From IMG/VR virus record IMGVR_UViG_3300029309_000160, positions 1 to 33,711 of that record: 33,711 bases of DNA; one strand, 5' to 3'. Both the position numbers and the translations under genes were made by a program. The notes beneath the pieces are model-generated. The model had not been told where the DNA came from and searched no databases. It saw nothing but the letters and a program-made list of their open reading frames with translations. The first letter of the stretch is position 1. Each line of letters begins with the position of its first letter. The DNA is from a virus. Of the stretch, positions 11,883 to 32,426 are shown in pieces.

Positions 11883-12260
11883 TTAAGATCCAACCGATCC
11901 AGACGTGTATTTACGCCTATTTGCCATTACTTTTCCACAACCTCTGGCGACTATTTTACCGTTTTTTGGTTTGGGGGTCTTCCTCTTCGCTTTGGTGCTG
12001 ACGATTTCTCCACCGAACGCTGCATATTTGACCTCTGCCGCTTTTGTGTTTTTGACGACTTGTTTGCCTGTCGCACCTTCTTTTTTCTTTTTTCGGGCTG
12101 TGGAGGCTCTTTCACTTTTTGAGAGACTGTTTGCTTTCGACCTCGGAAGGCACCTGTCAGGATTTTTTTTATCTTTTGAAGTACCACATTTACCTTTGAT
12201 TTCACCATCAGAACCAATCCTTACCCAATCCTGTTTCAACCATTTTTGAAGTTCTCCCAT
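11883..12260 (-). CDS. Basic protein, DUF5872-like
   Basis: A 125-residue Lys/Arg-rich protein. Residues 1-60 hold the recognisable core WLKQDWVRIGSDGEIKGKCG followed by SKDKKNPDRCLPRSKANSLS, which I associate with DUF5872 of marine phages. The Cys pair (GKCGT and DRCLP) may bind metal. The C-terminal part has PKPKNGKIVARGCGKVMANR, a separate tail motif seen in other small phage proteins. Its start overlaps the preceding stop by one base. No function is established. See the finding on a possible extra coding stretch after its stop. Confidence 0.7.
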   Translation of the reverse strand: MGELQKWLKQDWVRIGSDGEIKGKCGTSKDKKNPDRCLPRSKANSLSKSERASTARKKKKEGATGKQVVKNTKAAEVKYAAFGGEIVSTKAKRKTPKPKNGKIVARGCGKVMANRRKYTSGSVGS

Positions 12261-12502
12261 TATTTGCCCTTCCGTTTACCGCCTTTTGATTTTTTGGCGT
12301 AATTAGGATCTTTGCAATATTTAGACGCTGCTAAATTTGCATATGCAGAAGGGTAAGTATCAAAAGTTCTTTTTGCCCAAGCTTTTCCTTCAGGACAAAT
12401 TTTACTACCCTTACTTTTTTTTGAGGCTTCTCCACCTTTTCTAAAATAAGACAATCCTCTTGGAGTTTTCATTTTTTTCATTCCGGGCATTAGCATTTCC
12501 AC
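12260..12502 (-). CDS. Small basic Cys-containing protein
   Basis: An 80-residue basic protein; starts at Met1, Met4 or Met8 are possible. The core ICPEGKAWAKRTFDTYPSAY, followed by ANLAASKYCKDPNYAKK, is a conserved-looking module with two cysteines about 26 residues apart. I recall it from marine phage genomes next to DUF5872 and DUF6321 proteins. The Lys-rich tail suggests nucleic acid contact. It overlaps the upstream gene by 13 bases, which supports coupled translation. Function unknown. Confidence 0.65.
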   Translation of the reverse strand: MEMLMPGMKKMKTPRGLSYFRKGGEASKKSKGSKICPEGKAWAKRTFDTYPSAYANLAASKYCKDPNYAKKSKGGKRKGK

Positions 12503-12810
12503 CTTTTTCTTGCCTGTCTTAAACGAGAGTTAGGGTTCTTTGCGGCCTTTGGAAACTTTTTCATTTGGCCTGCAGAACGAGCGCAAAACGACTTTCTCCG
12601 TTTTGCGTCTTTACTCCCCTTCTTCACTTTACCTGTGACTGCGGTTTTAAGTTTTGAACCGGGATTTTTCTTTCTGTAAGCTTTTACGCCTGCCGCAGTC
12701 ATCCCCGCCCCTTTTTCTGTGGGGCGAAAATTCTTTTTATTGCGCTTGGGCATATTATCGCTTTTGCGCTTTTTATCCTTTGACGACTTCGTTTTAACCT
12801 TTGAAGCCAT
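12490..12810 (-). CDS. Basic protein, DUF6321-like
   Basis: A 106-residue, extremely basic protein. Residues 30-106 carry the block KGAGMTAAGVKAYRKKNPGS, then LKTAVTGKVKKGSKDAKRRK and FCARSAGQMKKFP, ending in RQARKRWKC. I recognise this as the DUF6321 type, found in marine phages and cyanophages. The N-terminal 25 residues are a Lys/Ser tail. The role is undescribed; abundance of Lys and Arg and its place among virion genes suggest a DNA-contacting particle protein. Confidence 0.7.
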   Translation of the reverse strand: MASKVKTKSSKDKKRKSDNMPKRNKKNFRPTEKGAGMTAAGVKAYRKKNPGSKLKTAVTGKVKKGSKDAKRRKSFCARSAGQMKKFPKAAKNPNSRLRQARKRWKC

Positions 12811-30263: not shown

Positions 30264-30479
30264 TTATTTCATCCACGATCTTCGGCAGTGTTCTATGTTT
30301 ACGCCAGAAAGTTTTAAATTTTCTACATAGTCGTCTAATTCTTCGCGAGCGGCAAACAATTCTTGTTCGATCCGTGGCCGTGCATCATCTCTTTTACTTT
30401 CATCAGCAAGATCATCCACCTGTCTTTTTAAAAACTTCAACAGTGCTTCTTGCCAATCTGTTAACGCTTCATCGCCCAT
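30264..30479 (-). CDS. Small helical acidic protein
   Basis: A 71-residue protein (MGDEALTDWQEALLKFLKRQ) that is helical and acidic throughout, with ARPRIEQELFAAREELDDYV. Its ATG overlaps the upstream stop by one base. Probably coupled with the genes on both sides. No family recognised. Confidence 0.6.
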   Translation of the reverse strand: MGDEALTDWQEALLKFLKRQVDDLADESKRDDARPRIEQELFAAREELDDYVENLKLSGVNIEHCRRSWMK

Positions 30480-30685
30480 TATCTATACTTCTTTCGTGCT
30501 TTTGTTTTACCTTTTATTGGCGGGAGATCCGCGACTAATGCGTCGGGGTTATTGCGTTTCCAACGTGCGTTCACGCCTATATTGTGGTTAAGTTCACGCA
30601 AGAACTCTTCTGCCGTGATTTCTCCATCTACTATCTCTTGTAAACGGTCTGCGACATAAAACAAGCAAACTCTATCATCCATCAT
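30479..30685 (-). CDS. Small protein following the AcrVA2-like gene
   Basis: A 68-residue protein (MMDDRVCLFYVADRLQEIVD) with a basic C terminus (KGKTKARKKYR). The start overlaps the stop of the AcrVA2-like gene (TAATG), so the two are made together. The core EITAEEFLRELNHNIG is a helix-turn-helix-sized unit, but no clear motif is seen. A partner or co-regulator of the upstream protein is possible. Confidence 0.6.
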   Translation of the reverse strand: MMDDRVCLFYVADRLQEIVDGEITAEEFLRELNHNIGVNARWKRNNPDALVADLPPIKGKTKARKKYR

Positions 30686-31941
30686 TATTTATCCTTTCTT
30701 GGTACATGATAACTTTTTAAAACACCATATTTCGGATGTCCGGCTTCATAGCCGTGGATATATTTTTCCCAACGCAAGCGCGTTTCACTCCAACGTGCGC
30801 CCTCCCAGTGTGACTCGGCTTTGCGCCAATGTCCTCTTCTGTAATGCAGACCTTGCCTTGACCCTGTTCCTTCTTCACTAGTTTTAGCCACAACAGGTTC
30901 ATCAACATTCCATGAAATCATATTCCATGCGTCGGGGATGTATCTACCCAGTGCATTTTTTATACGTTGTCTTTTGATCTGCGACACATCACGTTGAGAT
31001 CTTCTAACGTATCTTGGTTGGTTTATCGTTTGGAGCATAGCAGCAACTATCCGAAGCATCTCTTCAGCTTCTTCTCTCATTCTATTCCAAACGTTTTCTT
31101 CGTAAAGTAATATGTTTTCAAAAGCATGGTCAGAACCTTGTTCTGTATCGGCTACTACAATATTTCCAAGGGGTAGGGGCATTGTAAATTCTGTGGCATT
31201 TCTATTTAAGCCAACGTAATTTAACGGGTCTGCATCACTTGTTGCGATTAAAAAAACGTGAAAATGTCTTCTAAAATAAGGATCATTTGGCTCCAAATTC
31301 GCAGTTTGCGGGATGCATAAAAACAAAACTTCTACTGGGTTTGTATGCAGTGAATCTTTCATATTCAAACCAGATAAATACAAAGCAACATTTTCAGCCG
31401 GAAGTACACAATCCGGACTTGGTGGTACATCTTCGTCTGGATATATGTTCTTATAATTTTCGTAAACATATTCCCATATTACATCACAATCAAAATATTG
31501 AGTCTGTCGAGATAATAAATTTGCCCAATCTGTAGTTAAAACCAAATTTCGATTGGATTCAAAGAATTCGTCTAAAATTTTATTTCCTCTTGGGTCCAAC
31601 CTGTAATCTGTGACCAAGGCTTCTAAAAAATGAATGCTATCTTTCTTACCTTTAAACCGAACAGCCTTTTTTTTACGACGCCCGTGCGCTGTTTTACGCC
31701 CATGACCACGCCCGCTATGTGTTACATTTCCCATAGCTCCAACGCTTAATCTTTGTCCCAAAGACATACCTTCTTTAGAGACTGAGGAACTGTACGCTTT
31801 TTGTTTTCCCTGTCTAGCCATTGTTGCCTCCTTTCCAAAATATTGTTCGTATTCATCAAAATGTTGAATCAAACCGGCTTTACTGCCTTTTTTGATCCCC
31901 GCGCCACTTGCCTTTGCTTTTCCAAAACCGCGTTTAGACAT
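30685..31941 (-). CDS. AcrVA2-like protein with extra Lys/Gly-rich N terminus
   Basis: I place the start at the ATG at 31941 (AGGTGG five bases away; TGATG overlap with the upstream gene), giving 418 residues. The last 55 residues contain HYRRGHWR (about 366-373) and RLRWEKYIHG, matching the C terminus of the type V anti-CRISPR AcrVA2 (HIRRGHWHGYW...RWQPAV). AcrVA2 lowers Cas12a by acting on its mRNA during translation. Homologues also exist in hosts without Cas12a, so the target here is unknown. Residues 1-95 are basic, Gly-rich and unlike AcrVA2. An in-frame ATG at 31821 with GGAGG five bases away may be a second start. Confidence 0.6.
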   Translation of the reverse strand: MSKRGFGKAKASGAGIKKGSKAGLIQHFDEYEQYFGKEATMARQGKQKAYSSSVSKEGMSLGQRLSVGAMGNVTHSGRGHGRKTAHGRRKKKAVRFKGKKDSIHFLEALVTDYRLDPRGNKILDEFFESNRNLVLTTDWANLLSRQTQYFDCDVIWEYVYENYKNIYPDEDVPPSPDCVLPAENVALYLSGLNMKDSLHTNPVEVLFLCIPQTANLEPNDPYFRRHFHVFLIATSDADPLNYVGLNRNATEFTMPLPLGNIVVADTEQGSDHAFENILLYEENVWNRMREEAEEMLRIVAAMLQTINQPRYVRRSQRDVSQIKRQRIKNALGRYIPDAWNMISWNVDEPVVAKTSEEGTGSRQGLHYRRGHWRKAESHWEGARWSETRLRWEKYIHGYEAGHPKYGVLKSYHVPRKDK

Positions 31942-32120
31942 CAATACCACCTGTATTCTTCATGACATAGAGTATCATCCTCTATAAACCGCCAAGCACT
32001 CTCGTATGCCGCATCCCAATTTGTGTGATAGCCTGTAGCTATATCATCATCAGCAAGCCTAGATGCCCAATGATCTAGGCTAGGCTCATGGTCCAAGTTT
32101 AATTGTAATTGAATTTCCAT
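31941..32120 (-). CDS. Small acidic Trp-rich protein
   Basis: A 59-residue protein (MEIQLQLNLDHEPSLDHWAS) followed by RLADDDIATGYHTNWDAAYE and a Trp-rich end. GATGAGGAGTAAGTT precedes the ATG. Its stop overlaps the AcrVA2-like start (TGATG). It is the first gene after the promoter at 32153-32181, so this promoter drives the AcrVA2-like protein as well. Function unknown. Confidence 0.6.
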   Translation of the reverse strand: MEIQLQLNLDHEPSLDHWASRLADDDIATGYHTNWDAAYESAWRFIEDDTLCHEEYRWY

Positions 32121-32152: not shown

Positions 32153-32181
32153 AGTATATGGGAGAAATATTAGAAAGTCAA
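32153..32181 (-). promoter_or_regulatory. Promoter with TATGGGA operator driving the AcrVA2-like operon
   Basis: TTGACT (32176-32181), 17-bp spacer, TATACT (32153-32158). On the plus strand TATAGGA, three bases, TATGGGA (32147-32163) covers the -10. The -35 overlaps the stop of the 82-residue gene. This is one of the best sigma70 matches in the early region. Confidence 0.65.
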
Positions 32182-32426
32182 TGGATGTCTGATAAAATAT
32201 GTTCTTTTAGTTCTACATGGACAGATGCAGACGCCAGAGCGTTGCCAATTATGCCCGTTACGTCCTGTTTGTCAGGACTGCCTAAAAGTAATCTGTAAAA
32301 AGTCGCTACTAAAATGCCAGTATATGCTGCGCCCGCGTCAAAGTCCCCGTCGATTAGCTCATCAATCAAATCGTTTGTATGTTTTAAAGCTATTATGTAA
32401 TCGTCTTGGTTCGTATGGTCAGACAT
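32178..32426 (-). CDS. Small helical protein of unknown function
   Basis: An 82-residue protein (MSDHTNQDDYIIALKHTNDL) with helical segments IDELIDGDFDAGAAYTGILV and ATFYRLLLGSPDKQDVTGII. No cysteine; one weakly hydrophobic stretch (GILVATFYRLLLG) is too short to be sure of membrane insertion. No Shine-Dalgarno of usual form lies before the ATG; instead a hairpin ends five bases away. No family recognised. Confidence 0.6.
   Translation of the reverse strand: MSDHTNQDDYIIALKHTNDLIDELIDGDFDAGAAYTGILVATFYRLLLGSPDKQDVTGIIGNALASASVHVELKEHILSDIH

Follow-up and report, generated by a model that had tools for sequence, protein, structure and literature searches.

A single copy of an AcrVA2-like gene is found in the 33.7-kb virus record analysed here over its whole length (the window), at 30685–31941 on the minus strand, where it encodes 418 aa plus a stop codon. 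The coordinates given by the first-pass annotation are correct: over this interval the plus strand is crowded with stops, and the minus strand reads 418 aa to its stop codon. The reading frame is kept across relatives in numerous viral contigs, and comparison with two of these (L001 and L002) reveals more synonymous than non-synonymous change in each block of the protein, with a dN/dS of ∼0.08 in the C-terminus and ∼0.25–0.33 in the middle. Given the relatives in many viral contigs and the synonymous excess, the ORF is not a chance frame; it is real, coding, and under purifying selection. Relatives of the protein were not found in plasmids or in one bacterial/archaeal genome scan. By terminase and polymerase, the nearest cultured phages include the Pelagibacter phages HTVC027P and HTVC023P, at 53–60% and 46–51% identity. 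Elsewhere in the window, on the same strand, a 726-aa protein (336–2516) contains many NTxxGYxAG-type repeats and a C-terminus that by eye resembles the S74 self-cleaving chaperone domain of tail fibres, and two very Lys-rich small proteins of 125 and 106 aa (11883–12260 and 12490–12810) are encoded in the structural region.

The DNA polymerase places the window in a large group of phages whose polymerases are closely related, and in these a stretch of variable small genes separates the polymerase from the terminase-small/VRR nuclease genes. In the window, this slot is anchored on one side by a conserved DNA polymerase A gene that is cut by the contig end (32834–33709, minus strand) and on the other by a conserved terminase small subunit-like gene (PF03592; 28419–29045, minus strand), while an 82-aa gene (32178–32426, minus strand) bounds it on the polymerase side. 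In a relative, a GIY-YIG endonuclease of 474 aa, which has several helix-turn-helix motifs, is encoded in the variable region downstream of the polymerase (L038:13198–14619). An AcrVA2-like gene occupies the slot in 2 of 27 informative relatives (L050 and L082). Contigs L143 and L145 are ∼97% identical to the window on both flanks and lack exactly the segment 30696–32117 (about 1.44 kb), representing an empty site; the junction shows short microhomology and coincides with the ribosome-binding site and start codon that the next gene uses. The flanks of L144 are as close (∼97%), and its slot encodes an AcrVA2-like protein of 294 residues, whose resemblance to the window protein (35% identity) is confined to the C-terminal third. 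Similar alleles also occur in phages with a very distant polymerase (26% identity in L204). The AcrVA2-like gene is accessory: at one slot it is present, replaced by a very different allele, or absent. The segment lacking in L143 and L145 also includes a 59-aa ORF of no known family (31941–32120, minus strand), which the L144 allele does not have; in L202, a copy 52% identical to this ORF precedes the AcrVA2-like gene by ∼1 kb.

Downstream of the AcrVA2-like gene lie a conserved 68-aa gene of the DDRVCxFYVADR family (30479–30685, minus strand), whose one-base overlap with the AcrVA2-like stop codon is as first described, and a 71-aa gene (30264–30479, minus strand) that is also found near the AcrVA2-like alleles of L201–L204. 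The initial proposal that the 68-aa gene is a coupled partner is weakened by its distribution. It does lie closely 3′ of the AcrVA2-like gene in nearly all clade relatives with the 3′ side present, L131 being the exception at a distance of 245 bases, and in L177 the order is reversed, so that the 68-aa gene comes first. This adjacency in either order, together with an XRE helix-turn-helix inserted in the small protein of L001, L129, and L177 (HTH_3, 1e-12 to 1e-14), would suit a two-gene unit of an effector and its antidote or regulator, comparable to an acr-aca operon or a toxin-antitoxin pair. Such a unit is very unlikely, however, as the small gene occurs without an AcrVA2-like gene in L143, L145, L178, and L184–L199, and L201–L204 carry an AcrVA2-like gene without the 68-aa gene beside it. 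Because it so often occurs alone, the role of obligate partner is rejected, and the most fitting view of the 68-aa gene is that it resides beside the slot, perhaps with a regulatory function. No helix-turn-helix regulator in an acr-aca arrangement was recognised beside the AcrVA2-like gene of the window; L002 has an AlpA-like gene and L003 a winged helix. The inserted XRE domain is complete at L001:4867–5478, L129:2490–3083, and L177:3998–4540, and L001 keeps the same basic C-terminal tail after the insertion. L183 carries an additional, diverged gene of the 68-aa family upstream of its AcrVA2-like gene (2354–2569), which suggests duplication within the slot.

The AcrVA2-like protein consists of three blocks, all encoded on the minus strand. 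Residues 1–98 (31648–31941) form a basic N-terminal tail (pI 10.98, with 23 Lys and Arg against 5 Asp and Glu), which is exchanged separately from the middle and contains the motif SGRGHGRKTAHGR at residues 76–88 (31678–31716), with GRGHGR present in 15 of 56 dereplicated members. Residues 99–290 (31072–31647) form an acidic middle (pI 4.48), variable by conservation, block identities, and recombination, and proposed here as a target-recognition module. The remaining residues, 291–418 (30688–31071), form a conserved basic C-terminal module (pI 10.09) that its conservation and charge suggest as a common effector. Conservation peaks at residues ∼296–418 (2–3.6 bits per column) and is lower in the middle; the LHYRRGHWR...RLRWEKYI block, to which the first-pass annotation had drawn attention, does lie in the C-terminus, and no part of the family is more strongly conserved. 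In a profile alignment, the motif HYRRGHWRKAESHW at residues 366–379 (30805–30846) is in register with PHIRRGHWHGxW of AcrVA2. The HxRR(G/A)HW motif of AcrVA2 is present, with an HxxRG core that is invariant in the family and a second His that varies in some clades.

The Lys/Gly/Arg-rich N-terminus had been described as a new extension of about 95 residues. Its basic character is real, but the tail is common to a clade of marine-type phages rather than unique to this one, and the figure of 95 is a difference in length only. AcrVA2 has an N-terminal domain of its own, of ∼80–95 residues (PMC10846135), and the counterpart of the AcrVA2 WxxS(K)xxYxFD stretch, found at about residue 94 in the Shewanella homologue, starts near residue 140 in the window protein. 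The true excess is therefore ∼45–60 residues.

The three blocks recombine separately, and the acidic middle is exchanged between the basic tail and the conserved C-terminal module. For instance, the proteins of L114 and L125 are 75% identical in the tail, 42% in the middle, and 81% in the C-terminus, while DNA identity starts at 83–88%, drops to 39–60%, and returns to 80–89%. L128 and L082 have middles that are 95% identical (97–99% in DNA) and ends that are more diverged; with dS at 0.048 in the middle against 0.67 and 0.48 at the two ends, this similarity is not accounted for by protein-level selection. Three further pairs (L001/L117, L128/L131, and L180/L181) have tails in common and middles that are not. 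A swapped middle is the pattern expected if the middle picks the target. In the phage-host conflict around type I restriction, the HsdS subunit likewise exchanges its specificity domains, keeping constant parts around a recombining variable part. The window protein has the same layout but is unrelated to HsdS, and target recognition by its variable part is what we infer.

Basic ends, and a gene that sits among small genes next to the DNA polymerase, could also belong to an RNA- or ribosome-binding phage protein that alters host gene expression broadly, with no specific target and no role in counter-defence. A general function of this kind would not need recombination of the middle alone, however, and its clean loss in near-identical phages would not be tolerated; this explanation is improbable.

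Searches of the protein against Pfam, NCBIfam, and PHROGs returned no significant match, phmmer found no match to the AcrVA2 structure 7CI1, and BLASTP against Shewanella AcrVA2 gave a non-significant E of 0.04 over 65 residues. When the PDB was searched by sequence, with the protein alone and with profiles of its family, the epsin and cytochrome P450 matches obtained were at noise level and were rejected. With the window protein as query, tblastn detects Paracoccus phage Shpa (1e-14), cyanophages (4e-6 to 1e-5), and a Citromicrobium phage ‘AcrVA2’ (2e-3). Profile HMMs compared with AcrVA2 sequences in both directions gave no significant E-value, and profile-profile comparison alone was significant. 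For this comparison, AcrVA2 was anchored on the published Shewanella phage homologue, chosen because it matches PDB 7CI1 at 1.5e-72, and the AcrVA2 profile comprised 17 proteins from Shewanella, Moraxella, Leptospira, Pasteurella, Erwinia, Klebsiella, Dickeya, Acinetobacter, and Lactobacillus phages. The window-family profile was built from ∼50 relatives without the bridging sequences of Paracoccus, Synechococcus, Citromicrobium, and Erythrobacter.

Aligned with hhalign, the two profiles match at P 1.7e-6, with a local score of 53.3 and a global score of 28.8. All 60 column shuffles fall below these values (at most 21.7 local and 7.2 global), as does the reversed profile (17.9); the profile probability is 54–90% depending on the mode, not 99%. 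The aligned features are (W/A)xxxS(K/R)xxxxFD, PxxxxxLPxxxxxY, and LHxRRGHW, with the LPxx and LHxRRGHW segments in register. Two of the other profile comparisons pointed the same way. Early profile comparisons from few sequences were weak and inconsistent. Because the best local segment changed with the alignment, being C-terminal in one and LPxx in another, the argument rests on the global scores and the shuffles. An AcrVA2-family HMM also ranks the window family at the top among ∼2,500 phage ORFs, where it accounts for 8 of 11 dereplicated extra matches (p 8e-12), at weak absolute E-values.

As the full-length structure model was poor (pLDDT 61), a core-only model was made with a deeper alignment (residues 96–418; 56 sequences), and this model is confident (pLDDT 78.9, pTM 0.83). 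It begins with helices, continues with a beta-rich middle that includes a long helix, and ends in a beta-rich C-terminus, the same order as that published for AcrVA2, namely a helical N-terminus, a mixed middle, and a beta-rich C-terminus (PMC10846135). In Foldseek searches of the PDB, 7CI1 is absent among the best 50 matches listed for the core model and also among the matches listed for an earlier, poorer model. A blind search of viral models (BFVD) with the earlier model placed gp126 of Erwinia phage RisingSun, which by sequence belongs to the AcrVA2 family, at rank 4 (E 0.012, prob 0.80). Since Foldseek missed the AcrVA2 crystal structure even with the confident core model, the protein is filed as a distant AcrVA2-like relative and not as an AcrVA2. 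The label of AcrVA2-like holds in the sense of distant homology, which profile-profile comparison and the blind viral structure search support, and fails by BLAST, by curated models, and by Foldseek against the PDB.

The lack of a sequence match, of a curated family, and of a PDB fold among the matches listed could also mean that the protein is unrelated to AcrVA2, its HxRRGH motif being convergent in some other nucleic-acid-binding protein or nuclease; the hypervariable slot can, after all, hold selfish genes such as the GIY-YIG endonuclease of L038. Against this stand a profile score far above the shuffles in global mode too, the agreement of the LPxx and HxRRGHW segments, and the outcome of the rank test, and this reading is decidedly improbable.

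AcrVA2-like proteins have already been reported in many phages, huge phages included (PMC7162821; PMC10846135). Like AcrVA2, the type V-A anti-CRISPR of a Moraxella phage (7CI1, 7CI2; ORF43 in Shewanella phage vB_SbaS_Y11), the window protein is phage-borne, has HxRRGHW and LPxx in register within a distant profile homology, and follows the same order of helical N-terminus, middle, and beta-rich C-terminus, by model for the window and by published description for AcrVA2. It differs in showing no pairwise similarity and no Foldseek match to 7CI1 among those listed, in its extra basic tail, and in its phage group; the conserved GYEAGHPxxGxxKSYHxPR end of its family is not seen in AcrVA2. The AcrVA2-family proteins of Erwinia, Klebsiella, Dickeya, Leptospira, and Lactobacillus phages, which have a C-terminal PHIRRAHWHxYWxG block, align with AcrVA2 by ordinary BLAST, whereas the window family does not. 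A protein of Citromicrobium phage vB_CbaS-RXM annotated by its submitters as ‘anti-CRISPR protein AcrVA2’ (L008) and its Erythrobacter, Paracoccus, and cyanophage relatives have the C-terminal module in common with the window protein but are without the basic tail. This group is detected from the window protein (E 2e-3 to 1e-14) and also by family HMMs built without it (E 3e-6 and 5e-9). In the open-licence literature, no report was found of this more distant family, of its exchangeable middle or basic tail motif, or of a presence/alternative/absence polymorphism at one slot.

According to a review and a meeting report of a preprint, AcrVA2 reportedly recognises the nascent N-terminus of Cas12a (LSKT peptide), leading to translation-dependent decay of the cas12a mRNA (PMC13131331; PMC12908700). 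For the accessory protein of the window, the same principle is the most likely one and is given nearly an even chance. If the protein works like AcrVA2, its anatomy makes the middle the natural candidate for target recognition and the basic ends for contact with the ribosome or RNA. A specific nascent polypeptide emerging from the ribosome would be recognised by the acidic middle (residues ∼99–290), contact with the ribosome or RNA would fall to the basic N-terminal tail and to the conserved, basic C-terminal module with its HxRRGH motif, and the message under translation would be lost. A single host protein, probably one involved in defence, would thereby no longer be made. Recombination that places another middle between the constant ends could alter the target range, as could replacement or loss of the whole gene at its fixed slot.

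In the crystal structure 7CI2, AcrVA2 is also bound to an internal peptide of the finished Cas12a protein (PMC13131331). A distant relative might accordingly serve counter-defence by binding and blocking a finished host protein, with no message destroyed, and the variable middle and the biology of the slot fit any specific binder. This mode of action nevertheless leaves unexplained both the strongly basic ends and the much higher conservation of the C-terminal module, relative to the middle, across the family, features that suggest a shared nucleic-acid or ribosome contact, and it is considered rather unlikely.

Within the co-translational reading, Cas12a is only one possible target. A broader role in removing specific messages, as envisaged in the first-pass annotation, would fit the accessory location and the separately recombining middle. 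More tentatively, the family may represent a modular class of phage co-translational silencers, in which a constant frame acting on the ribosome or RNA (the basic tail and the HxRRGH module) is combined with recombined middles that recognise nascent chains, and for which AcrVA2 and Cas12a would be only the first known pair; this generalization is possible but carries distinctly less than an even chance. AcrVA2 is reportedly the first phage protein to remove a message by reading the nascent protein, and if the modular view is true, one family could shut off many different host proteins. The natural exchanges of the middle domain (L114/L125, L128/L082, and L128/L131) provide ready-made pairs for asking which part chooses the target, and the family suggests that marine bacteria may offer new targets of counter-defence.
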